Source: Olivibacter sitiensis DSM 17696
Lineage (GTDB): Bacteria; Bacteroidota; Bacteroidia; Sphingobacteriales; Sphingobacteriaceae
NCBI RefSeq assembly: GCF_000427965.1
Contig: NZ_ATZA01000048.1
Span: 1-36,923 of the forward strand
Direction: 5' to 3'
Length of the DNA: 36,923 nucleotides
The notes under the pieces were generated by a model. The model had not been told where the DNA came from and ran no database searches. It saw nothing but the letters and a program-made list of their open reading frames with translations. A program made the translations under genes and the position numbers. Positions 2,971 through 33,535 of the stretch are shown in pieces. The first letter of the stretch is position 1; every line of letters begins with the position of its first letter.

Positions 2971-3454
2971 GGCTATTATATATTTCTGTGAGCTTGCTCT
3001 TGATGCGGTGGATTTTTACCCGGAGATTGCCTTCCGATATGCCGGATATCTCCGCAATTTCGGCATAGGGGACTTCGTCCAGCACCATCGTGATGATGAT
3101 GCGTTCGTGTTCCTCCAACTGGGCTATGCACTTGTACAGTTGGGCTATTTGTTCTTGTTTATCGGATTTCTCTTCGGCCAGTGTTTCCAATGTATGGTCA
3201 TTGATCTCGTCCGTTGCTTTTCTTTTCTCTACTCTTAGGTAGGATAGGCAGGTGTTGACGGCTATGCGGTAAATCCACGTGGATAACTGGGATTGTTTCC
3301 GGAATTTATCCATGTTTTGCCAAACCTTGATGAATGTCTCCTGCATTAGGTCATTGGCGGTGTCGGTATCGCCCGTATAGCCATAACATAGGTGGAACAC
3401 CTTGCTTTTGTTCTGGTTAAATACATCCAAAAATACCGAATCTTTTTCCGTCAT
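2957..3454 (-). CDS. RNA polymerase ECF-type sigma factor
   Basis: The 165-residue protein has the two domains of extracytoplasmic-function sigma factors. Region 2 lies at ~10-75, with ANDLMQETFIKVWQNMDKF and LSTWIYRIAVNTCLSYLR for -10 recognition and core binding. Region 4 lies at ~105-160, with LEEHERIIITMVLDEVPYAE and a helix-turn-helix AEISGISEGNLRVKIHRIK for -35 binding. It redirects RNA polymerase to a stress or envelope regulon that the window does not identify. The downstream membrane gene overlaps it by 14 bp. Its upstream region carries a 17-bp near-perfect palindrome (3500-3516), and the symporter gene diverges beyond it. Confidence 0.95.
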   Translation of the reverse strand: MTEKDSVFLDVFNQNKSKVFHLCYGYTGDTDTANDLMQETFIKVWQNMDKFRKQSQLSTWIYRIAVNTCLSYLRVEKRKATDEINDHTLETLAEEKSDKQEQIAQLYKCIAQLEEHERIIITMVLDEVPYAEIAEISGISEGNLRVKIHRIKSKLTEIYNSHERF

Positions 3455-3499
3455 TGAATCCGTGCACGCTTGCTTTGGGAATATGATGCAAAGAAAGGA

Positions 3500-3516
3500 T
3501 ATTTTGTTACAAAATA
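3500..3516. promoter_or_regulatory. Palindrome between the ECF sigma and symporter genes
   Basis: TATTTTGT-T-ACAAAATA has 8-bp complementary arms around one base and lies 45 bp upstream of the sigma-factor start. Its position suggests an operator for the sigma/anti-sigma operon, but the binding factor is unknown. Confidence 0.4.
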
Positions 3517-3537
3517 ATTCAAAAAGAGGCTAAATTC

Positions 3538-3567
3538 TTGCACACTTCCCTTATTTGACTATTTTTG
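3538..3567 (+). promoter_or_regulatory. Promoter of the symporter gene
   Basis: TTG (3538-3540) and TATTTTTG (3560-3567) with a 19-bp spacer fit the Bacteroidota -33/-7 pattern. The start codon lies 75 bp downstream of the -7 box. Confidence 0.6.
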
Positions 3568-3642
3568 TGGGCAACAAATACTCCATTGAGTGTGATCTGG
3601 CCTGTGTGAGTGATCCAGCTAACGTGACACGCTGTAATTTAT

Positions 3643-5061
3643 ATGCGAATGAAATCAAAAATAACCTCACTATTTACATTAGTGACCATTACCTTTGTTG
3701 CAATTCTGTATGCTATTGACTTCTACACCGAAAATGTGTCGGTCCAATTGCTGTTCGTCTCACGTTGGCTAGCTGTATTGGGGCTCATTTTTTATGGTTT
3801 CAAGAAGAAAACACTTACCTCTTGGATATTGATTGCCTTGGTGATCGGTGCATGCGTAGGACATGATTGGCCCGAGGTGGGGATAGAACTGCAAGTGGCC
3901 AGTAAGGTTTTTCTCAAGTTGATAAAAACTATCGTATCACCCTTGATTTTTGCTACTCTGGTTTATGGTATTGCAGGTCACTCGGACATTAAGCAAGTGG
4001 GAAGAATGGGGTGGAAGTCTCTGCTTTATTTTGAGGTAGTCACTACCATTGCCTTGTTTATCGGTCTTGCGGCAATCAATATCAGCAAGGCTGGCGAAGG
4101 CATTATACCGCCTGCCAATCAGCATGAGGAACTGCAAGCGGCAAAGCCGCAAACTTGGCAGGACATTATCTTGCACATATTTCCGGAAAACATCGCCAAA
4201 TCCGTAGCCGATGGAGAGGTGCTTCAAGTAGTTATATTCAGTGTTATATTTGGTCTAGGCCTCATCATGGTGCCAGAAACCAAGAGAAAGCCCATGGTGG
4301 ACTTCACCGAGAGTCTTTCGGAAACCATGTTTAAATTCACCAATATAGTGATGTACATGGCGCCGCTAGGAGTGGGGGCAGCCATGGCCTATACAGTGGG
4401 CCATATGGGTTTGGGTGTGCTGGTCAACCTATTTCAGCTGTTGGCTACGCTTTATGTCGCCCTGTTCGGATTTTTGCTCTTGGTCTTGTTGCCTATCGCA
4501 TTGTTTATTGGCTTGCCCATCAAGAAATTCATTATAGCGGTCAGCGAGCCAGTTTCGATAGCGTTTGCCACAACCAGTTCCGAAGCAGCCTTGCCCCGAG
4601 CAATGGAAGCCATGGAGCGGGTGGGAGTGCCGCGTAAAATAGTGGCTTTTGTAATGCCCACGGGATACAGTTTTAATCTCGATGGCACAACGCTCTACCT
4701 CTCCCTGGCCAGTATATTTGTGGCACAAGCGGCAGGCATTCATTTGTCTTTTGGTCAGCAGCTCATCATGGTGTTTACACTTATGATTACCAGCAAGGGG
4801 GTGGCAGGCATACCGCGGGCCTCGCTTGTGATACTCATGGGGACTGCGGCTTCTTTCAACTTACCCGTATGGCCCATATTCATCATACTGGGTATTGATG
4901 AGCTGATGGACATGGCGCGCACTTCCGTCAATGTGATCGGCAATTGCCTAGCAGCGGCCGTTATTGCCAAGTGGGAAAATGAGTTTGACCCCGAAGGTGC
5001 CGAAGCGCGCCTCGCGGCGGAAAAGATAGCCGAGGACTATGATAAGTCACTTAACAGATAG
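3643..5061 (+). CDS. Dicarboxylate/amino acid:cation symporter, glutamate/aspartate type
   Basis: This 472-residue inner-membrane transporter of the DAACS (SLC1-like) family carries the hallmark HP1 motif TTSSEAALPRAM (310-321), the helix 7 NLDGTT motif (345-350), and the helix 8 signature DELMDMARTSVNVIGN (419-434). Compared with the archaeal transporter GltPh, the residues contacting the substrate amino group (Asp423) and side-chain carboxylate (Arg426) are kept. This points to acidic amino acids rather than simple C4-dicarboxylates, whose DctA carriers read SEARALTN here. The last position is Asn434 where GltPh has a sodium-binding Asp, as in bacterial GltP/GltT, so coupling may involve protons. 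The length is slightly above the family norm because of an extra N-terminal membrane pair. The gene stands alone behind a clear promoter. Confidence 0.92.
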   Translation: MRMKSKITSLFTLVTITFVAILYAIDFYTENVSVQLLFVSRWLAVLGLIFYGFKKKTLTSWILIALVIGACVGHDWPEVGIELQVASKVFLKLIKTIVSPLIFATLVYGIAGHSDIKQVGRMGWKSLLYFEVVTTIALFIGLAAINISKAGEGIIPPANQHEELQAAKPQTWQDIILHIFPENIAKSVADGEVLQVVIFSVIFGLGLIMVPETKRKPMVDFTESLSETMFKFTNIVMYMAPLGVGAAMAYTVGHMGLGVLVNLFQLLATLYVALFGFLLLVLLPIALFIGLPIKKFIIAVSEPVSIAFATTSSEAALPRAMEAMERVGVPRKIVAFVMPTGYSFNLDGTTLYLSLASIFVAQAAGIHLSFGQQLIMVFTLMITSKGVAGIPRASLVILMGTAASFNLPVWPIFIILGIDELMDMARTSVNVIGNCLAAAVIAKWENEFDPEGAEARLAAEKIAEDYDKSLNR

Positions 5062-24780: not shown

Positions 24781-24813
24781 TGACCTAAATAGGTTACCCA
24801 TCAATATAAAGAG

Positions 24814-24841
24814 CCCCAAGTTTAAAAAACTTGGGGTTTTT
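24814..24841 (+). terminator. Terminator of gyrB
   Basis: CCCCAAGTTT (24814-24823) pairs with AAACTTGGGG (24827-24836) around an AAA loop and is followed by TTTTT. Confidence 0.92.
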
Positions 24842-24909
24842 CTATGTTATGACAAGGGCTTTTCGATACATTTACCTGTTTTTATTATTTATATTTATTG
24901 AGATACAAC

Positions 24910-26112
24910 ATGAACCGAAGCGTTCCAATTGCTAATTCCAGTTTCTCTTTTATCAGTCACCTGAAATGTCCCGCTTGCGGGACACGTTATGAAGTAGACC
25001 TTGTTCAGACCGTTTGCCGAGTTGGTGAATGCGGAAGTACCTTATATGCCAAGTATAATTTACCTTCAGGCCTATCGGCTAAGGAGCTACTGAAAGGGCG
25101 TCCTGCGAATATGTGGAGGTACCACGAGTTCCTGCCCGTACTGCAGGGGGAATGTGTCGTCAGTTTGGGAGAGGGCTTTACGCCTATTCTGTCGATGAAG
25201 CACTTAAGCAAACTGACCGATGGCCTTTCTGTAATATGGAAGGATGAATCGGGCAATCCTACGGGATCCTTTAAGGCCAGAGGTCTCAGTGGTGCCGTTT
25301 CAAAGGCGCATGAGCTAGGGATAAAACATATTGCTACACCTACTGCGGGTAATGCCGGAGGAGCTTTGGCGGCCTACTGCGCTAGGGCGGGAATCCACGC
25401 ACATGTCTATATGCCCAAGCAGACACCAAAGGTATTCAAGGATGAATGCAGGCTATATGGCGCTGAAGTGATCGAAGTGGACGGGAACATCGCAGACTGT
25501 GGTAAGCGAGCCGATACAGATGCGCGGGAAAAGGGCTGGTTCTTGGTGTCTACGCTGAAAGAACCTTATAGGCTGGAGGGAAAAAAAACCATGGGCTATG
25601 AAATAGCGGAGCAGTTGGGGTGGAAGTTGCCCGATGTCATCCTGTACCCTACCGGTGGAGGAACCGGCCTTTTGGGGATATGGAAAGCTTTTGATGAGCT
25701 GGAGCAGCTGGGATGGATAGATAGCCGTAGGCCCAAGATGGTGGCTGTACAGTCCGAGAGTTGTAAAGGGATAGTAGAAGCTTTCCATAGCGGAAAGGAA
25801 ACGGCAGTGTATCAGGATAACGGTTTTACCATGGCCAATGGTCTGCGCGTACCCAAACCTTATGCCGATCGCTTGATTTTGCAGGTGCTTCGTCAGAGCG
25901 GCGGTACCGCCATCGCCGTTGCCGATGATGACATGGAGAAGGCGCTAAAAGAGATCGCCGCCAACGAAGGCTTGCTGTTTGCGCCGGAAGGAGCTGCTTT
26001 GTGGGCCGCTTTTAAGCGGTTACATGCCTCCCAGTGGTTTTCGGAGGGGCAGACTGTCTTGCTGCTAAATACGGGAAGCGGTTATAAATACCTTGAAAAT
26101 CTGTCTATTTGA
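24910..26112 (+). CDS. Threonine synthase (PLP-dependent)
   Basis: The 400-residue fold-type II PLP enzyme has an N-terminal zinc-ribbon-like segment (Cys20, Cys23, Cys36, Cys41 in LKCPACG...CRVGECGS). The PLP lysine is Lys122 in SGNPTGSFKARG. The glycine-rich phosphate-binding loop is TPTAGNAGGALAAYCARAG, and a second glycine loop is YPTGGGTGLLGIWKA. It converts O-phosphohomoserine to threonine in the branched aspartate pathway. The shape matches the shorter, plant/archaeal-type threonine synthase rather than the long E. coli ThrC. Paralogous threonine dehydratases lack this zinc-ribbon leader, so synthase is preferred, but related PLP lyases cannot be fully excluded. I start at ATG 24910; a TTG 12 bp upstream is also in frame. 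Confidence 0.88.
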   Translation: MNRSVPIANSSFSFISHLKCPACGTRYEVDLVQTVCRVGECGSTLYAKYNLPSGLSAKELLKGRPANMWRYHEFLPVLQGECVVSLGEGFTPILSMKHLSKLTDGLSVIWKDESGNPTGSFKARGLSGAVSKAHELGIKHIATPTAGNAGGALAAYCARAGIHAHVYMPKQTPKVFKDECRLYGAEVIEVDGNIADCGKRADTDAREKGWFLVSTLKEPYRLEGKKTMGYEIAEQLGWKLPDVILYPTGGGTGLLGIWKAFDELEQLGWIDSRRPKMVAVQSESCKGIVEAFHSGKETAVYQDNGFTMANGLRVPKPYADRLILQVLRQSGGTAIAVADDDMEKALKEIAANEGLLFAPEGAALWAAFKRLHASQWFSEGQTVLLLNTGSGYKYLENLSI

Positions 26113-26251
26113 ATCGAGCGACACAGCAGATCGTTAAATAGCGTTTAAAACTGTAAATAAGCCTCTTGTAAAAGTTAATGATGGTTAAAAATCTTGCTTT
26201 TTGAACTCATAATTTCCTCCTTTGACTCGTCGAGATCATATGGTTATTTCA

Positions 26252-26887
26252 ATGTCGAAGATTATGTTAATAGGAAGAAAAATAGTGCTGAGTACGTTTT
26301 TACTTACTCTTGGGGCAACAATGGCTATGAGCCAGACCCCGTCGCGTATACAATTGGTGACGCAAAAGTTGAATCTTGTTTTTGGGGAGAAGCAGTCTAG
26401 CTATCGGGCTACCAATGTTACTTATACAATAGAATATCCGCGCGTTTTTGATGCGGGGAACGAAAATGCTCCGATACCATTTCTCCCTGATTCTTTGGCT
26501 AGGAAAGGCGGAAAAGATGAAAGGCCCGGAAATGAGCTGATGGGGGCAAGACCTAGACCAGAGATGCCCTTTTTTCCGCTTAGGGAAAAAGAGGACGATA
26601 AGGGCATGAAGCTATACGTTAGCGTGTATGCCAACGATATCGACGATGATCTTTACAGTGCTATTGCCAGTGGTGATGGTCTGACGGGTAATGTCACTTA
26701 TATGGACAGCGGTAAGGAAAGGCAGGTTGCCTTTTCGAAGGCTAGGCTGGTAGGAGTCGATGAAAGCTACGTAGCTGGTGCGCCAGACCGTATGCTCAGT
26801 ATATGCCTGTTGATAAACCAAGGAAGTTTGAACGGACATGCCATAAGTCTCAATATGCCTAGACGTCCTGGATCACCAAAATACTAA
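26252..26887 (+). CDS. Secreted protein of unknown function
   Basis: The 211-residue protein has a typical signal peptide (MSKIMLIGRKIVLSTFLLTL, cut near AMSQ). A Pro-rich, charged middle follows (~55-105, with PIPFLPDSLARKGGKDERPG and EMPFFPLREKEDD). The C-terminal half is beta-rich (KLYVSVYANDIDDDLYSAIA, ARLVGVDESYVAG, ISLNMPRRPGSPKY). The alternating strands and the closing block loosely recall Hcp/TssD tube proteins of Bacteroidota, but no diagnostic motif is present, no secretion genes lie nearby, and a signal peptide argues against it. In-frame ATGs at 26240 and 26264 are alternatives. A strong terminator follows, separating it from the PadR cassette. I do not recognise the family. Confidence 0.7.
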   Translation: MSKIMLIGRKIVLSTFLLTLGATMAMSQTPSRIQLVTQKLNLVFGEKQSSYRATNVTYTIEYPRVFDAGNENAPIPFLPDSLARKGGKDERPGNELMGARPRPEMPFFPLREKEDDKGMKLYVSVYANDIDDDLYSAIASGDGLTGNVTYMDSGKERQVAFSKARLVGVDESYVAGAPDRMLSICLLINQGSLNGHAISLNMPRRPGSPKY

Positions 26888-26914
26888 TTATCCTTTTTCA
26901 TTAGTTTCCGTTTG

Positions 26915-26945
26915 GCCCTTTCCCGTTTTGGGAAAGGGCTTTTTT
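26915..26945 (+). terminator. Terminator between the secreted unknown and the PadR cassette
   Basis: GCCCTTTCCC (26915-26924) pairs with GGGAAAGGGC (26930-26939) around GTTTT, followed by TTTTTT. Confidence 0.93.
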
Positions 26946-26959
26946 ATGGCATAAGAAAA

Positions 26960-26988
26960 TTACATACATAAATTTCTTATGTATGTAA
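26960..26988. promoter_or_regulatory. Palindromic operator in front of padR
   Basis: TTACATACATAA (26960-26971) and TTATGTATGTAA (26977-26988) are exact complements separated by 5 nt. The site contains the ATAC/ATGTAT-type half-sites usual for PadR dimers and covers the -33 region of the padR promoter. Autorepression is the natural inference, as PadR regulators commonly repress their own operon. Confidence 0.75.
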
Positions 26989-26996
26989 ATAAATTA

Positions 26997-27004
26997 TATA
27001 TTTG
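26997..27004 (+). promoter_or_regulatory. -7 box of the PadR cassette
   Basis: TATATTTG matches TAnnTTTG and ends only 4 bp before the padR ATG. Transcription would begin at or very near the start codon, giving a leaderless or nearly leaderless message. Confidence 0.6.
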
Positions 27005-27008
27005 TCGT

Positions 27009-27347
27009 ATGAGTTCAGCAAAGTTATTGAAAGGGACCTTACAGACCATTATCCTCAAGTTGTTGGAGGATAAGGATAGGATGTATGGCTATGAAATCAC
27101 CCAAAAGGTGAAGGAATTGAGTGATGGGGAGTTTAAGTTGACGGAAGGGGCTTTATATCCGACCTTGCACAAGCTGGAGGCAGACGGGCTTTTGGAGACC
27201 AGTACGGAAATGGTGGATGGGCGCGTGCGCAAGTATTATTCGCTTTCCACCGATGGGAAGGCCGAGGTGCAACACAAGATGAGCGATGCCGCACTTTTCA
27301 TAGAAAAGCTGCAGCAGGTGCTCAACCTGAAACCGTCGATAGGATAA
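27009..27347 (+). CDS. PadR family transcriptional regulator
   Basis: The 112-residue protein has a PadR winged helix (residues ~5-85): LLKGTLQTIILKLLE, MYGYEITQKV, the recognition-helix segment LTEGALYPTLHKLEADGLLE, and the wing GRVRKYYSLSTDGK. A short C-terminal helix (~88-105) serves for dimerisation, as in small PadR-s2 proteins. The start at 27009 gives MSSAKLLKGT; the frame opens 30 bp upstream inside the operator, which argues against that start. It is the first gene of a run with four membrane proteins (next gene 33 bp away), and the palindrome 21-49 bp upstream suggests it represses the whole set. The inducer is unknown. Confidence 0.95.
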   Translation: MSSAKLLKGTLQTIILKLLEDKDRMYGYEITQKVKELSDGEFKLTEGALYPTLHKLEADGLLETSTEMVDGRVRKYYSLSTDGKAEVQHKMSDAALFIEKLQQVLNLKPSIG

Positions 27348-27380
27348 GGAAAAGAATCAAAGATAAAAATTAGGGAAGCG

Positions 27381-28040
27381 ATGTCGTTAACTTTTGACCA
27401 GCAGGCATATATCAAAGACTATGTGTACAAGGTGGTGACCTATCAGGAGACTTACGAAGAGGTGAGCGATCACCTCATCACGGCCTTGGACGGACGGCGG
27501 TTTTCTACGGAGAACGAATTGGCGGCGGCCATGTTGCAAATTATAGAAGATGATTTTGGTGGACTGCCTCAAATAATAAGTGCCGAGCGTAATTTCAGTA
27601 GGGAGTTGGCCGAGAGATGGAAGATTGTCCATGTGAGGGAGCTTAGATCTTTCCTTCGCAATGCATGGTTCTGGTGTGGTTTGGCGGTTATTTTTTTTGT
27701 GCTGTACAAAGGACTCTTGACGCATTATGACAACAAGATTGTATTGGTCCTTTATTTTCTTTTCGCGACTTTACCCTTAATGTACCAATTACCTTTTCGT
27801 CTGGCACAATGGGGTAAGAAGAAATCCATCAAAAACAGGGCTTTGGATTTAATAGGCAGCAGATTGACGTTTTCATTTTCATCGTTGCTAATTATACTAA
27901 GTTCCGACATTGGTCGGGAACTAGGTGATTTTATAAAGTATGTGTACAGTTTTGTGCTTTTTTTTCTGATTGTGTGCTGTACATTGATTGTAAGGTTGAT
28001 ACATAAGAAAATGAAGCCGATGCGCTTGGCAAGTAAATGA
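27381..28040 (+). CDS. HAAS-like domain membrane protein 1 of the PadR cassette
   Basis: The 219-residue protein has an N-terminal helical domain (~1-75) and a C-terminal set of about four membrane helices (~93-205). The domain reads QAYIKDYVYKVVTYQETYEE, then SDHLITAL with Asp30-His31, a Glu/Ala helix (ENELAAAMLQII), and EDDFGG at 56-61. This pattern resembles the HAAS (HTH-associated alpha-helical signalling) domains commonly encoded beside PadR genes, which relay a membrane or stress signal to the regulator. Residues 1-70 align without gaps with the next gene, indicating tandem duplication. Function is inferred from context. Confidence 0.75.
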   Translation: MSLTFDQQAYIKDYVYKVVTYQETYEEVSDHLITALDGRRFSTENELAAAMLQIIEDDFGGLPQIISAERNFSRELAERWKIVHVRELRSFLRNAWFWCGLAVIFFVLYKGLLTHYDNKIVLVLYFLFATLPLMYQLPFRLAQWGKKKSIKNRALDLIGSRLTFSFSSLLIILSSDIGRELGDFIKYVYSFVLFFLIVCCTLIVRLIHKKMKPMRLASK

Positions 28041-28068
28041 TTGGAGTATTCAGACATAAGTAACAGAC

Positions 28069-28731
28069 ATGGCATTGACTAAAGAACAAGAGATTTACAT
28101 CAAGAATTACGTGAACTTGATGGTCGACTACCGGGAGACCTATGAAGAGTTGAGCGATCATTTGATCAGTGCATTGGAAAATTCGGATTTTCGTGATGAG
28201 GGTGAGTTGCGGGAAGCTCTTACGGTGGTGATGGATGAAGACTTTGGTGGGGCTTACGAAATAGTAATGCAGGAAAGGGAGCGGTCTAAGCTCTTGGTAT
28301 CCAAGTTGGGTAAGGAACACTTTAAGGGATTCCTCGTGAGCCTTTCGCGACCATGGATTTGGTTGGTGCTTGTCGCCACATTTTTTGCGAGCCAACGAAT
28401 GGCTGTTTCTATCAGTTCTGTGCAGTTATACAAGAGTTGTCTGGCGATTATGATACTGCCTACATTGGTCTTTGGACTGTACAAATTCGTGACGATAAAG
28501 GGGAAGAAATCCATAAAGGAAAAGGCGGTGTTCAATATGGCGTTTTTGATGTTGAGCATGAACCAAATGGTCGTACTTTTTTTCAATGAGGTGTTAATTG
28601 ATTTTTCGGAAGGTAACAAAGTATTTGTCCTGCTTCTACCAGTTGTGTTGATCTATGCCTATAGCATTAGTATTATCAGCTTTATGAACAAGGAGATACA
28701 GGTCATCAAACATTTGGTCAAGCTAGCATAG
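28069..28731 (+). CDS. HAAS-like domain membrane protein 2 of the PadR cassette
   Basis: The 220-residue protein is the closest paralogue of the preceding one: EIYIKNYVNLMVDYRETYEE, SDHLISALE (Asp30-His31) and DEDFGG (56-61) align column by column. Membrane helices follow at ~92-110, 122-140, 155-175 and 185-205. The intergenic gap is only 28 bp, so it is cotranscribed. The hydrophobic part is far less alike than the N-terminal domain, which suggests that the domain, not the membrane part, carries the conserved function. There is no signal peptide or enzymatic motif. Confidence 0.75.
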   Translation: MALTKEQEIYIKNYVNLMVDYRETYEELSDHLISALENSDFRDEGELREALTVVMDEDFGGAYEIVMQERERSKLLVSKLGKEHFKGFLVSLSRPWIWLVLVATFFASQRMAVSISSVQLYKSCLAIMILPTLVFGLYKFVTIKGKKSIKEKAVFNMAFLMLSMNQMVVLFFNEVLIDFSEGNKVFVLLLPVVLIYAYSISIISFMNKEIQVIKHLVKLA

Positions 28732-28740
28732 CTTTTTAAG

Positions 28741-29451
28741 ATGGAACTACTACTACCATACGAGATAGATTGGGTAAAGCACAGGCTACGTATTTATCAT
28801 ATTAAATATGATGAGGTATACCATGAAATCTATGACCATATGCTGTCTGCCATGGAGTATAAGCGACAACACGGAGATAGCAGGGAAATATTGAGCCTTT
28901 TTCAGGAGGTGATGGATGAGGACATCGGTAGTCACCAAGGCATTGCGAAGATGCAATCCGATATGGAGACATCGGTAAACAGATACCTTTCACGCGCTGT
29001 TAAAAGATTTTTTTTGGAGGGATTCAGAGGCCGTCAAGCCTTATGGACATTGATGCTGTTTGCCGCTATCTATGCTTGCTCGCAGGTGGTGGTAGCACAG
29101 AAAGCATTCTTTTTGATTTCCTTAGGAGCCGTGCTTTTTGGACCAGTAGTACATGTAATAATAAAGTCGTGGCGGCGTCTTTACCGACTTGGTGACAGGC
29201 GAAAGCCTTCTTTGGTCGTGTCTAGCATGTTGAACTTGTCCAACTTTCTTATCCCATGGTTTATGGTCTTTGTATTAAACCTGTCCATGCTGCTTTCGCT
29301 TTTTTCGAAAGAGGAAGTCTCCAGGGATGCCGTACTGGTGTTTCTAGGGCCAGCAGGGCTATCTTTGTTGCTCACACTGGCCATTGTTTACTGGCAGGGT
29401 TTTGCCAAGACGTTGAATACGGATTATAAGAGGATGTTGCAAACCGATTAA
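28741..29451 (+). CDS. HAAS-like domain membrane protein 3 of the PadR cassette
   Basis: The 236-residue protein keeps the same layout in a diverged form. The N-terminal segment is HRLRIYHIKYDEVYHEI then YDHMLSAMEY (Asp32-His33), with DEDIGS at 59-64 replacing the DEDFGG motif. About four membrane helices follow (~97-115, 118-138, 163-185, 200-220). It starts 9 bp after the previous gene, indicating translational coupling. The Asp-His pair and the Asp-x-Gly motif are kept while most surrounding residues differ, which supports their importance. I do not recognise an enzymatic motif. Confidence 0.72.
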   Translation: MELLLPYEIDWVKHRLRIYHIKYDEVYHEIYDHMLSAMEYKRQHGDSREILSLFQEVMDEDIGSHQGIAKMQSDMETSVNRYLSRAVKRFFLEGFRGRQALWTLMLFAAIYACSQVVVAQKAFFLISLGAVLFGPVVHVIIKSWRRLYRLGDRRKPSLVVSSMLNLSNFLIPWFMVFVLNLSMLLSLFSKEEVSRDAVLVFLGPAGLSLLLTLAIVYWQGFAKTLNTDYKRMLQTD

Positions 29452-29540
29452 ATTTCTTGTATGGAAAATTCTGGACACAGCCACGCTCATGGCCGTTATC
29501 AAAACGAGCCGTATAGATTATGAACAATTGGTAAAACAGC

Positions 29541-30239
29541 ATGAGGAAATTGACCGCACATCAAATTGAGGAGTTAAAGAGTTTCATCTCCAAGCGGGGC
29601 TTCGTCTATACCGATGTACAGTTGGAGATATTGGATCACTTTGCCTGCAAGGTAGAAGAAAAGATGAATCTAAATACTAATTTGGGTTTTGAGGATGCGA
29701 TGACTGCTGCTCATCGTGATTTTGGTGTTATGGGCTTTGCACCTATAGAAGACGCCATAGGCAAAGATATCACTAATAGGTTGAAGCGCGAGGCGAGACA
29801 GGTTCTTAAGCATTGGTTTACTAGTGCTCGTGTACTTTTGGTTCTGTTCTTTTTGTTCTTGTCAAGCAAATTTTATTTGCTTATAGCCAAGCCTACATTG
29901 TGCTTGGTCATGTTGTTCGCGGCATATTTGTGCTGCTTGATCTATTTCTTGATTTCCATCTATAGAGACCAATATCGCTTCAAAAATATGTTAGCCTATA
30001 GAGTGGCTGGGAGCTTTATAGGCGCCATGGCTGCCTGGCCTATTTTCTTGCTGAATTGCTATCAAATGATTGGGCGTGCATCTTGGTCGGACAACCCGCT
30101 GATGGCGCTGCTTTTTGCAATACTGCTCATCATCCAAGTGTTGTTTTTTGTCGTTATGTGGCGTTTTTATAGAGAGACTAAGGCACGGTGTGATGAACTT
30201 GGGCGCATTTATGGGACAAGTCAGGCCACGCAGCGATAG
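29541..30239 (+). CDS. HAAS-like domain membrane protein 4 of the PadR cassette
   Basis: The 232-residue protein is the most divergent member. Its N-terminal domain has ELKSFISKRGFVYTDVQLEI then LDHFACKVEEKM (Asp32-His33) and HRDFGVMG near 58-65, followed by four membrane helices (~97-115, 118-140, 150-170, 185-205). It is separated from gene 3 by 89 bp, more than the other gaps, but no terminator lies between. The stop is 7 bp from the end of the convergent gene. The gene belongs to the cassette by homology and position. An independent promoter in the gap cannot be excluded. Confidence 0.7.
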   Translation: MRKLTAHQIEELKSFISKRGFVYTDVQLEILDHFACKVEEKMNLNTNLGFEDAMTAAHRDFGVMGFAPIEDAIGKDITNRLKREARQVLKHWFTSARVLLVLFFLFLSSKFYLLIAKPTLCLVMLFAAYLCCLIYFLISIYRDQYRFKNMLAYRVAGSFIGAMAAWPIFLLNCYQMIGRASWSDNPLMALLFAILLIIQVLFFVVMWRFYRETKARCDELGRIYGTSQATQR

Positions 30240-30246
30240 TATTTCC

Positions 30247-30846
30247 TTAAAACAGCACGCCAAACTTGATGAATAAGCGTTTGAAGGTAATTCGGTCTTC
30301 CTGCATGCTACTCACGCCCTCTGGCAGTGCTGCCGAAGTACCAGAAGCTGCAAATTCCGTAAAGCGTAATGCTTCATAAATGGTGGCCCTTTGCAATTTG
30401 TAGCCCAAGCTTAAGGTGAAGGTATCCCTGCCTTTTTGTTTGAAGCCCAATCCAAAAGCTGGGTTAAACATGAAGCCACCTTTGTACCATTCTTCCACCG
30501 TATTCTTCTGTAACCAAGAAAATCCATGTCCCACATCTACGGATAAATAAGGATAGGTTTTGTCGTCGTTCAAGGCCAATCTGGCGCCGAAAGCAACAGG
30601 CAATAGAGTGAGCTCCGGATAGGAGTCTACCGAAATACTAACGCCAAAAAAGCCAACCCTGTTCAAGTGAATACCATGGAAGCTTTGGAAGGTGAAGCCC
30701 GAACTACTGGTCACCGACTTATTGCCCATCAGCATGCCCATTTCCGTGTGATGGCTATAGCCTATCGACTGTGCTTGGCAGGTAGCAAACCAACAAAGCC
30801 AACAGCATGAAGCGTTGAATATTAATAAGATGCTCGCTTTGCGCAT
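30247..30846 (-). CDS. Outer-membrane beta-barrel-like protein
   Basis: The 199-residue protein has a signal peptide (~1-25, ending CQAQ). The mature part is dominated by short alternating strands rich in Tyr/Phe/Gly (GFTFQSFHGIHLNRVGFFGV, YLSVDVGHGFSW, FTLSLGYKLQ) and ends in the Phe typical of barrel proteins (FIKFGVLF). A small eight-strand barrel is plausible. It lies 3 bp downstream of the LVIVD lipoprotein gene, so the two are coupled. I do not recognise a precise family. It is convergent with the PadR cassette, with no terminator in the 7-bp gap. Confidence 0.65.
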   Translation of the reverse strand: MRKASILLIFNASCCWLCWFATCQAQSIGYSHHTEMGMLMGNKSVTSSSGFTFQSFHGIHLNRVGFFGVSISVDSYPELTLLPVAFGARLALNDDKTYPYLSVDVGHGFSWLQKNTVEEWYKGGFMFNPAFGLGFKQKGRDTFTLSLGYKLQRATIYEALRFTEFAASGTSAALPEGVSSMQEDRITFKRLFIKFGVLF

Positions 30847-30849
30847 AGA

Positions 30850-32121
30850 CTATCCGTTGCCGATGGAAATGGTGCTTAACTTTTTTAAGTTGCCTGAACT
30901 TTTATAGTCGTATTGCGATACGCCGTCGGAACCCACTACAATAAGCGATTTGCCCGTTGGTATAACGTCGTATGACTTCTGGTTTTGCAGAAACTCCAAT
31001 TGATTTTTGTCTATGTTCAACACATCGGCGGCATTGAAGTATTTTAGTCCATATTGTCCTTCGCAAATGAAGAGCCTATTGCCATCCAGGCCAAGTCCAT
31101 GCGGGTTGCGCATCTCATAGCTCTTGAGCAACACTGGATTTGAAAGATCTTCTATGTTTAATATTTCCAATCGATCAACTCCCTGCTGGCAGAAATTGCC
31201 GCTACGAAGGGTCACGAAAGCATGCTTGTCGTTGACCACCACGGGGTCGCAGGCTGTGAAATGCTGATAGACAGACTTTCTCACCGGAGCAGATGGCGTA
31301 CTTGCATCATAGATATGCATGCCCGTAGTGGAACCGATGAAAAGATTGTCCTTATAGGGGAAAATGGTCTCGATACCCCAGCCCAACGAGATATCGCTTA
31401 CGAAGCTGGGGGAGCGAGGTTGTGATACATCGAACAGGCGTAGGCTGCTTTGGTCAACGGCATAGAGGTGACTTTTCAATAATGTGAAGCGCGCCATGGA
31501 GCCCCCTTGTCCATAGGTTTGGCCGCCAGCTGTCCATCCGCCTCCTCCAGAAAAATTAGCAGCAGCATCGTTGAACGCAATCAACCTGGGATCACTTTGT
31601 GGGACGGTGTAAGATACGATAGAATCCTTGTAGGTGACAAGCATGCTTTTCTCGGTATTGATAAACATGTGTGGGAATACATCCTCTACTCTTTTTACCA
31701 GTTGGATGTTGTCTATGTCACTGATGTCGAAGGCCAATAGATCAACGTAACTGTCTGCGTATAGTATGTTGGTGTTTACTGCCATATCCACGGAACCGGG
31801 GATCTTCAAGAAATGAATCTTCTTGGGAGAGGAAGGATTTTGATTGTCAAAAACGTGAATGCCCTCATTGGGCTCACTGATAAAAAGGTAGTCGCCATAG
31901 ACATATATCTTACCCGTAGCAGCAATTGCCTTGGGCGATGTAAGACCGACTTGCATGGCTCTGACTTCGGAAGTTTTTAGATATACCGGTACTTGAGTAA
32001 TGTAAGTATAGGTACTTTCTACCTTGTCGTTGCACGACAAAAAAGTTGAAAAAATCAATAGGGAAAAAATAGCCCAGCGAGCACGGCTTCCATGACGTAG
32101 CTGTTTAGATTGACGAATCAT
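30850..32121 (-). CDS. LVIVD repeat-containing lipoprotein
   Basis: The 423-residue lipoprotein has a signal peptide with lipobox FSTFLSC (Cys30). The rest is made of LVIVD-type beta-propeller-like repeats, for example KIYVYGDYLFISEPNEGIHV, NILYADSYVDLLAFDISDI, SHLYAVDQSSLRLFDVSQPR, and LFIGSTTGMHIYDASTPSAP. Each strand pattern is [LI]-x-[VA]-[FY]-D-[IV]-S-x-x-x-x-P. Such proteins are surface or periplasmic with unknown ligands, common in Bacteroidota. It is the upstream partner of the beta-barrel-like gene (3-bp gap), so the lipoprotein may sit on or plug the barrel. I see no enzymatic motif and no clear promoter. Confidence 0.85.
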   Translation of the reverse strand: MIRQSKQLRHGSRARWAIFSLLIFSTFLSCNDKVESTYTYITQVPVYLKTSEVRAMQVGLTSPKAIAATGKIYVYGDYLFISEPNEGIHVFDNQNPSSPKKIHFLKIPGSVDMAVNTNILYADSYVDLLAFDISDIDNIQLVKRVEDVFPHMFINTEKSMLVTYKDSIVSYTVPQSDPRLIAFNDAAANFSGGGGWTAGGQTYGQGGSMARFTLLKSHLYAVDQSSLRLFDVSQPRSPSFVSDISLGWGIETIFPYKDNLFIGSTTGMHIYDASTPSAPVRKSVYQHFTACDPVVVNDKHAFVTLRSGNFCQQGVDRLEILNIEDLSNPVLLKSYEMRNPHGLGLDGNRLFICEGQYGLKYFNAADVLNIDKNQLEFLQNQKSYDVIPTGKSLIVVGSDGVSQYDYKSSGNLKKLSTISIGNG

Positions 32122-32165
32122 AATTTAACGTTTGAGATTAATGGATAAAACCAACCAACCTTACT

Positions 32166-32204
32166 TGGGGAATTTATTCTTATGTGTGTTTATTCAATTC
32201 CCCA
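32166..32204. repeat. 9-bp inverted repeat upstream of the LVIVD gene
   Basis: TGGGGAATT (32166-32174) and AATTCCCCA (32196-32204) are complementary across 21 nt in the 145-bp gap after the hydrolase gene. This could be an operator or a weak terminator. Confidence 0.35.
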
Positions 32205-32266
32205 TCCTTCTCACGTGTAATTAAACGTGACTGATCATCAATGTGCTACAGTTTTTTTAAAAGAAA

Positions 32267-33535
32267 TTATAAGCCCTTAATAAATTTCACAATTCCCTCT
32301 ACAAGGCCCCGGTCTATAGGTAGATTGGGGTTGGTATACGTGTCCAGATTTTCTTTTCTGTCTATAGGAGCCTCTTTTAAGACATGATTCAATCCCTCGA
32401 CCAAGAGCAATTGGGCGTTTGGTGCGGCAGCCTTTAGCTTTTCGGCATTGTCCGTAGGTACTTGTAGATCCGTGGTACCACCTATGATGAGTGTGGGCAG
32501 TTTTACTTTTTTGATTTCCTCTGCAGGGTTGACCTTAAAAGAAGTGATCAAAAAAGGCTGTATGGAAGGTGCAAAAAGGGCGTTCAGCTCTTGTGGTACA
32601 TCATCCACTCTTTGTGACTGTTTTAGCTTGGTTAGGATAGGTTCGACTTGTTTAGCCAGTTCGGGTTGCGATATTAGTTGTTTTTCAATAATATCACTCA
32701 GGTTTTCGCCTGCGCCGCAAAGAGAGATGAAGGCATATGGCGTCGTCTTTTGGACAGCTACCATACCGATGGTTGATCCCTCGCTATGGCCAATCACGAT
32801 AATTTTTCCAAACTCCGGTTTGCTTTTGAAGAATTGTATAATGTATGCGGCATCATCTACAAAATCATCGAAAACCAGTTCCTTGGTACTGGCATTGAAA
32901 TTGGAGCTTTGTCCTACCAGCCGTTTGTCGTACCGATAGCTCGCAATGCCTGCTTCCGAGAGTGCTTGGGCCAAGAGCAAATAGGGACTGGCACTTACAC
33001 CGTATGGATTGTTGCCGTTTCTGTCGGTTGGCCCACTGCCCGCTATGATGATAACTAGAGGCATTGCTTGTTTAGCTTGCTTTGGCAAGATAAGGCTACC
33101 GCTTATTACGCCATCGTTTACCCTGATGTTGATTTCCTCTTCTCCGTTTGCTAAGTTACCGCTTCTAGCTTTGGGCGAGCCCTGGATGAAAAAACCTTGG
33201 ATTAGGCCTTTTTCGTCAAAAGAAAAACTCATGGGTACTTCATATTGCTCGAATATTGCCGATAACAACAGTGGATTTTCGGATGAAGGATCGGCTGGAC
33301 CAATATGTTCATATTTGCCAAACTGTCCATTGAGCTGTTCCCATAGTTCAGCCATTTTTACTTCGGTTACGGCTGTTTGGAAATTGGCACTGCAATATTG
33401 TTTCAAAGCTTCGGCATACTCGTTTTTTTGCAAGTGCCCCAAGAACGAGGTGACTGTTTGCAGTCGGTCTTGACATTGCGCAATGAAACTACAGAGGAAT
33501 AAGCACGCGGTGATAAGAGGAGATTTAAGTGTCAT
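32267..33535 (-). CDS. Secreted alpha/beta hydrolase with N-terminal DUF3887 domain
   Basis: The 422-residue protein has a signal peptide (~1-21) and a DUF3887-type domain (~25-115, FLGHLQKNEYAEALKQYCSA). The alpha/beta hydrolase domain (~140-420) shows the oxyanion block IIIAGSGPTDRNGN and the nucleophile elbow GHSEGS with Ser251. The catalytic Asp is Asp356 in GGTTDLQVP and the His is His384 in GLNHVLK. The fold is of the S9/dienelactone hydrolase type, so it probably hydrolyses an ester or peptide-like substrate in the periplasm. The substrate is not identifiable. It is monocistronic, with a -7 box at 33578-33585. Confidence 0.9.
   Translation of the reverse strand: MTLKSPLITACLFLCSFIAQCQDRLQTVTSFLGHLQKNEYAEALKQYCSANFQTAVTEVKMAELWEQLNGQFGKYEHIGPADPSSENPLLLSAIFEQYEVPMSFSFDEKGLIQGFFIQGSPKARSGNLANGEEEINIRVNDGVISGSLILPKQAKQAMPLVIIIAGSGPTDRNGNNPYGVSASPYLLLAQALSEAGIASYRYDKRLVGQSSNFNASTKELVFDDFVDDAAYIIQFFKSKPEFGKIIVIGHSEGSTIGMVAVQKTTPYAFISLCGAGENLSDIIEKQLISQPELAKQVEPILTKLKQSQRVDDVPQELNALFAPSIQPFLITSFKVNPAEEIKKVKLPTLIIGGTTDLQVPTDNAEKLKAAAPNAQLLLVEGLNHVLKEAPIDRKENLDTYTNPNLPIDRGLVEGIVKFIKGL

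Follow-up and report, generated by a model that had tools for sequence, protein, structure and literature searches.

A PadR operon with four tandem HAAS-like membrane proteins in Olivibacter sitiensis and its likeness to HAAS-PadR signalling

The closest described systems to the locus discussed here are the HAAS-PadR dyads. According to the parts of Ravi et al. 2024 (PMC11237479) available to us, HAAS is a domain of three helices with a kinked third helix and a GxP motif, it always lies beside PadR, and it is fused to two, four or six transmembrane (TM) segments or to MacB/FtsX or FtsW parts. The same parts of that paper propose the dyads as an alternative to two-component systems, on the basis of gene neighbourhoods and domain fusions. 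The Listeria LltR operon (lmo0599, lmo0600, lmo0601) is a second relative. In it, as far as the accessible portion of PMC6624303 describes it, PadR comes first, a HAAS-type membrane protein follows, and there is autorepression. The third is permease prefix domain 1 (NF038403) with the ADOP permeases (TIGR03434), where an N-terminal helical domain again lies next to PadR. This work concerns a locus of Olivibacter sitiensis DSM 17696 in which a PadR gene is followed by four genes for HAAS-like membrane proteins, H1 to H4 in gene order. It lies in a 36,923-nucleotide stretch of DNA that we call the window. We argue that the locus looks like a distant branch of HAAS-PadR signalling and not a new kind of system, and that a mechanism of that kind is plausible for it.

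The likenesses and differences can be stated briefly. The locus shares with the dyads, as the available text of PMC11237479 describes them, a stand-alone PadR, variable membrane modules and what is here a predicted three-helix cytoplasmic N-terminal domain (N-domain) with a kinked third helix, and both kinds of domain are fused to 4-TM and MacB/FtsX parts. It differs in that the window family has ExxDH and F-G motifs in place of GxP, is not recognised by the Pfam HAAS model (PF22564), and places up to four tandem members in ordered subfamilies behind one PadR. Fusions to TMEM260-like and GldL/GldM-like proteins occur here and are not among the HAAS fusions named in those parts of PMC11237479. 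The Listeria operon, as described in the accessible portion of its paper (PMC6624303), has one DUF1700 protein and a DUF4097 protein, no array, and belongs to another HAAS branch. The prefix domain gives a weak match in register, but the window proteins fall far under its cut-off and have no permease part. We found no description of the family, the arrays or their order in the portions of the HAAS/PadR literature available to us (PMC11237479, PMC6624303, PMC12419801).

An initial annotation of this DNA described a PadR gene with four consecutive related genes behind it, and the open reading frames (ORFs) are there as it said (Table 1). The four proteins are related to different degrees. In blastp H1 and H2 match at E 4.8e-24, with 41.5% identity over residues 1-106; H2 and H3 match at E 2e-7 and H1 and H3 at E 4e-4, while H4 meets none of the others at E 1e-3 and is linked to them solely through relatives. 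Profiles of the three subfamilies, A, B and C, match one another with hhalign probabilities of 99.6 (A-B), 98.6 (A-C) and 97.3 (B-C). Identical in all four proteins are M1, L3, K12, Y21, E27, D30, H31, D58, G60, L101 and K147. We examined this core across 130 family members, a set that includes the window's four and from which duplicate loci and identical N-termini were removed. E27, D30 and H31 are each found in 127 of 128, so the Asp-His pair that had been called invariant stands in the wider alignment as part of an ExxDH core. The accompanying D-[FI]-G motif survives in part: F59 (110/122) and G60 (102/122) are kept, but D58 is found in just 50 of 123, and the motif is therefore really F-G. 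The blastp values, the subfamily profile matches and the conserved core together lead us to reject chance similarity of the four proteins.

For the first two proteins the annotation also proposed a conserved signalling domain joined to a divergent membrane part. This is true of H1 and H2, whose identity is 48% across the N-domain and 20% across the remainder; it fails for H1 with H3 and with H4, to which we return below. Same-array comparisons, 66 in all from 34 loci, show the N-domain to be more alike than the rest in 56 (means 33.0% versus 25.0%), where the pairs are not independent and members outside 190-260 amino acids (aa) or without DH in place were excluded.

Linkage to PadR holds in every neighbourhood that we read. 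The four-protein profile matches 92 of 399 Sphingobacteriaceae genomes, O. sitiensis included, and has no match in the four other genomes of the genus; of the 296 phylum genomes scanned, 24 have a match to the N-domain profile. PadR adjoins a family member in all 40 Sphingobacteriaceae neighbourhoods read. One of these is the window, and the other 39 were taken from 36 of the 91 further genomes of the family that match. It is also next door in 21 of 21 further loci of the phylum scan, by which all 24 matching genomes are covered, and in two of these (L198, L199) it lies downstream of the membrane gene. The neighbourhoods thus agree with the linkage first proposed in 61 cases out of 61, and multi-copy arrays recur among them. 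Our scan of named genomes yielded 20 loci, 17 from Mucilaginibacter, two from Pedobacter and one from an unclassified Bacteroidetes metagenome-assembled genome. The initial annotation could not place a four-fold array of this type, but such arrays recur. Mucilaginibacter myungsuensis and M. rivuli each have PadR with four members, and three more quadruple arrays (L193, L194, L202) occur in another family of the class. The idea of a unique array is accordingly rejected, with four-fold arrays in five other genomes.

The sizes and order of the arrays bear on how they arose. Among 53 non-duplicate neighbourhoods there are 24 single, 21 double, 5 triple and 3 quadruple arrays, proportions that are not unbiased, the neighbourhoods having been picked by hand with multi-copy genomes preferred. 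Six named loci that duplicate others were removed from this count, as from the paralogue-pair and core-residue counts. Three of the single arrays are TMEM260-like fusions and one of the doubles (L059) is a split gene. The C-type protein is last in 10 of 10 arrays that mix C with other types. Of 10 further multi-gene arrays, 8 have a clear C (a C-profile score of at least 77), and the best C-scorer is last in all 8; L204 and L217 are multi-gene arrays without a clear C. The genomes with ordered arrays are related, so that these counts are not independent events. Genes 3 and 4 fall outside subfamily A, in subfamilies whose order is conserved, so the array is not the product of one recent duplication; the duplication first suggested describes genes 1 and 2 and not genes 3 and 4. 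One could still argue that the array reflects mainly tandem duplication without multiplexing, the extra copies being redundant or decaying and one of them, likely the C-type, being the one that matters. Copy number does vary from one to four among relatives, and shortened or interrupted members exist, such as L040 (165 aa) and L059 (split into two frames). Yet H1 to H4 all have open, full-length frames, the three subfamilies are well separated and keep their order, and four-gene arrays are also found in the three genomes of another family named above. We think this explanation very unlikely.

The region ahead of PadR has conserved elements too. A perfect palindrome, the probable PadR operator, lies there as had been claimed, and its pattern has one match in the window and none in 100 shuffles. 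Of the 40 Sphingobacteriaceae loci, 28 carry the motif ATAC[AC]TA-N5-9-TA[GT]GTAT as an exact match in the 110 nt before PadR (0.00 expected from shuffles), and 38 carry it when up to one mismatch is allowed (0.04 expected), though the loci counted are also those from which the motif was derived by eye. A first palindrome scan was noisy, and the counts come from this motif scan with shuffles. The palindrome stands by a second element, TATATTTG. We label it a promoter element on the assumption that TAnnTTTG is the Bacteroidota -7 consensus; TAnnTTTG is found upstream of PadR at 33 of the 40 loci, against 4.9 expected from shuffles. The element is so near the ATG that PadR would be translated from a message with little or no leader.

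The operator seems to be nearly private to this operon. Its 21-bp core, ATACATAA-N5-TTATGTAT, has one perfect copy in the whole genome (5.05 Mb) and none with one mismatch. There are five sites with two mismatches, two of which lie at other PadR loci (contigs C22 and C38). With up to three mismatches the genome has 38 matches versus 50 for a backwards control pattern (per strand), which gives no basis for inferring a larger regulon. The simplest reading would be that PadR represses its own operon and has few or no targets beyond it. At C22 (L079), a classical HAAS-PadR locus, we observed three ATACATA-type palindromes near 4056, 5471 and 6454, two to three mismatches from the window core and near the starts of PadR and of two genes that follow it; one of these two is serine-hydrolase/beta-lactamase-like, judged by eye.

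We propose that the locus is a HAAS-PadR-type switch from membrane to DNA, contained in one operon and based on a divergent HAAS-like domain, with autorepression and docking, and this is the reading toward which we lean. A PadR dimer would bind the palindrome over the promoter and repress its own operon. The operon would yield PadR and four membrane proteins, whose cytoplasmic N-domains may dock PadR through the conserved ExxDH helix. A signal at the four-helix membrane part would alter docking, freeing or sequestering PadR and so tuning the same operon, and several sensors with differing membrane parts could share one PadR. The membrane proteins would then be both sensor and output, a double role that is conjectural, as are the direction of the effect and the signal.

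Fusions in relatives suggest that the N-domain is a portable module for coupling to PadR. A TMEM260-like protein O-mannosyltransferase (PF11028) carries it in L053, 2778-5975 (-), and L054, 5615-8815 (+), in proteins of about 1065 aa beside PadR; L072, 3322-6525 (-), and L152 look by sequence to be similar fusions and also lie beside PadR. In L197 a 416-aa protein, 3110-4360 (-), begins with the HAAS-like N-domain, beyond which GldL_N and GldM_1st are matched above their Pfam cut-offs. This protein lies directly behind PadR, 4348-4743 (-), and joins parts of the type IX secretion/gliding motor in one chain. The N-domain also heads MacB_PCD-FtsX permeases beside PadR in L195, 3802-6498 (+), and L196, 3700-6411 (+), which match TIGR03434 with about 300 bits where the cut-off is 622, and have an architecture that the available text of PMC11237479 reports for HAAS too. 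In the genome of O. sitiensis itself the five PadR genes found each lie beside a HAAS-type or HAAS-like N-terminus, two of these being sub-threshold matches (Table 1).

These fusions bear on a different explanation, that PadR senses a small molecule and the membrane proteins are regulated effectors that protect the envelope, with the N-domain serving in their assembly. LmrR is a PadR-type sensor of small molecules, according to the accessible portion of PMC6624303. The same portion reports that in Listeria deletion of lmo0600 (DUF1700) restored cold growth lost in an LltR mutant, so a HAAS-type protein can be an effector, and the fact that the operon is seemingly the sole strong operator target in the genome fits as well. 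What this explanation accounts for poorly is the presence of the N-domain beside PadR on 4-TM, TMEM260-like, MacB/FtsX and GldL/GldM-like proteins, which coupling to PadR explains best, and the near invariance of the ExxDH core in proteins whose remainder is more divergent. We regard it as unlikely.

Whether the N-domain is truly of the HAAS kind depends on structure prediction and on profile comparisons. An AlphaFold2 model of H1 from 45 sequences has a mean predicted local distance difference test (pLDDT) score of 90.2 and a predicted template modelling (pTM) score of 0.79, with helices at 5-18, 22-36 and 44-59, a break at G60, a helix at 62-93 and more helices after it. Modelled alone, as the initial annotation had proposed, the N-domain of H1 gives the same helices to residue 91 (mean pLDDT 89.7). 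The prediction is of three helices before the membrane part with the third broken at G60, as described for HAAS. Beginning at about residue 88, each of H1 to H4 shows four hydrophobic peaks, which bears out the claim of about four membrane helices. Compared with a combined profile of HAAS and permease-prefix domains, the N-domain gives an hhalign probability of 34.5 (P 4.1e-4) over 52 columns in register, a score raised by prefix-type PadR neighbours that were added post hoc after a marginal HAAS-only result; none of 200 shuffles is as good and the reversed control gives 3.0. The accepted relatives, prefix and HAAS, match each other no more strongly (5.9, P 0.0064). Of the 106 N-domain records in the HAAS comparison three had no usable DH and were skipped, and the 103 used include duplicates from two overlapping sets. 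One PF22564 match (L116), the sole one of 19 without PadR in its stretch, was excluded from the HAAS alignment. Two prefix-type PadR neighbours (L131, L136) have a DH pair in register with the family, the hidden Markov model (HMM) scores that link them being partly owed to membrane segments. NF038403 reaches the window at best with E 0.18 (11.6 bits against a cut-off of 30) and finds 2 of 65 family members at E <= 0.1 (best 0.0019); the best match in register is in relative L200 (E 4.8e-4, 19.9 of 30 bits).

The named families do not take these proteins in. H1 to H4 have no match that reaches any cut-off among the Pfam and NCBIfam models. PF22564 matches none of the four at E <= 10 and none of 65 family members at E <= 0.03, where all 22 families with matches are listed, and it is not among the 25 of 37 Pfam families listed for members at E <= 0.1. 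With no PF22564 match and with GxP missing, we class the family as a sister branch and not as a member of the named HAAS family. A HAAS-like, PadR-linked family was what had been suggested: the linkage, the predicted three helices and the combined-profile match agree with this, and the Pfam HAAS and NCBIfam prefix models and the GxP motif do not. On the combined evidence of profile comparison, helix prediction and linkage to PadR, the family looks like a divergent HAAS-like branch.

Several results weigh against the HAAS-like switch as we propose it. GxP is found in 1 of 120 family members, whereas 16 of 18 hits to PF22564 have it, as do 3 of 8 proteins of the prefix type. Against the HAAS profile alone the N-domain gives an hhalign probability of 4.3 (P 0.0096), in register, with 1 of 200 shuffles as good; prefix-type domains by themselves give 7.5 (P 0.0047), with just 16 columns aligned. 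An N-domain-only HMM finds nothing among HAAS proteins with default filters, and with filters off its best E is 1.1e-4 in a 13-sequence set. Foldseek finds no solved structure at E <= 0.001 for whole H1 or for the N-domain. Identity in the N-domain and in the remainder is 21.9% and 23.7% for H1 and H3, and 17.6% and 27.8% for H1 and H4. Outside the Sphingobacteriaceae a similar palindrome stands at only some of the 21 loci. Finally, the binding of PadR to the palindrome and the docking of the N-domain are both steps that we infer. Other structure searches, with the whole model and with the N-domain, scored low, the best VIA Z values of 7.2 and 5.7 falling short of the level that the tool deems informative for helical models. 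No HAAS or DUF1048 structure, 2O3L included, is among the Foldseek or VIA matches listed, which excludes nothing, and sequence searches of the PDB gave nothing usable.

It could be argued from this that the domain is unrelated to HAAS, a convergent helical domain that likewise works beside PadR. The scores below every Pfam and NCBIfam cut-off, the missing GxP and the weak HAAS-only profile score are what such an origin would lead one to expect. The combined-profile match that no shuffle equals, the DH pair shared in register by L131 and L136, and the same placement in MacB/FtsX permeases as reported for HAAS speak for common descent, and we hold convergence to be quite improbable.

Table 1. 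Features of the PadR operon and of the other PadR loci of the O. sitiensis genome
Feature	Coordinates	Strand	Remarks
Palindrome, probable PadR operator	26960..26988		perfect; 12-bp arms and 5-bp spacer
Bacteroidota-type -7 promoter element (putative)	26997..27004	+	ends 4 nt before the PadR ATG
PadR-family winged-helix regulator	27009..27347	+	112 aa; PF03551 E 5.3e-22, 78 bits versus curated cut-off 27
HAAS-like membrane protein 1 (H1)	27381..28040	+	subfamily A, 219 aa; N-domain ~1-92; four membrane helices
HAAS-like membrane protein 2 (H2)	28069..28731	+	subfamily A, 220 aa
HAAS-like membrane protein 3 (H3)	28741..29451	+	subfamily B, 236 aa
HAAS-like membrane protein 4 (H4)	29541..30239	+	subfamily C, 232 aa
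PadR locus on C52			PadR with the four-gene array
PadR locus on C22			PadR neighbour passes PF22564
PadR locus on C38			PadR neighbour passes NF038403
PadR locus on C63			PadR neighbour with sub-threshold NF038403 match, 23.2 of 30 bits
PadR locus on C100			PadR neighbour a PspC/LiaF/Toastrack protein; N-terminus with sub-threshold PF22564 match, 13.3 bits

The initial annotation began the locus at 26960, which is where the palindrome lies. The PadR start is most likely the one in Table 1 because an earlier ATG, at 26979, falls within the palindrome. H1 to H4 all lie on the PadR strand. The next ORF, 30247-30846, is on the opposite strand, so the operon probably ends with H4. In the gap between genes 3 and 4 we spotted by eye a His-rich frame of 20 codons, 29461-29523 (+), which may be chance. 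The closest relatives found for H3 are 35-38% identical and come from a genus (g4) of the same family. H1 also had a weak match in its own genome on contig C38 (E 0.35), which we dropped; it falls in an 891-aa ORF of outer-membrane type, judged by eye, with no family match. A defence system was considered and rejected, PADLOC giving no meaningful match (weak Csa3 hits for PadR and a single weak Cas8b hit for H1).

Elsewhere in the genus, a hydrolase 49-54% identical to the one at 32267-33535 of the window comes immediately after gyrB (91-92% identical) in each of the four other genomes. No other window gene that we tested was found in those four stretches, and at E 1e-10 the four genomes have no match to the threonine-synthase-like gene that lies upstream of the array. 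This junction in relatives means that, in the genus sample, about 7.5 kb (24781-32266) is peculiar to this genome, either by gain here or by loss in the others, and the modest hydrolase identity leaves room for a more complex rearrangement.

These loci are small compact operons with a near-private operator, a nearly invariant core of three residues (E27, D30, H31) and a natural series of one to four sensors, so docking and the integration of several sensors can be tested directly. With them, the range of PadR coupling grows to include a TMEM260-like mannosyltransferase and a GldL/GldM-like protein. More tentatively, and with somewhat less than even confidence, we suggest that the Bacteroidota may hold a widespread and so far unnamed group of PadR switches, each with a single autorepressor for several stacked sensors in fixed order, the C-type last, and that their domain may have been grafted onto O-mannosyltransferase-like, MacB/FtsX and gliding-motor-like proteins. 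If this is true, the state of such membrane machines would be read directly into transcription without a kinase.

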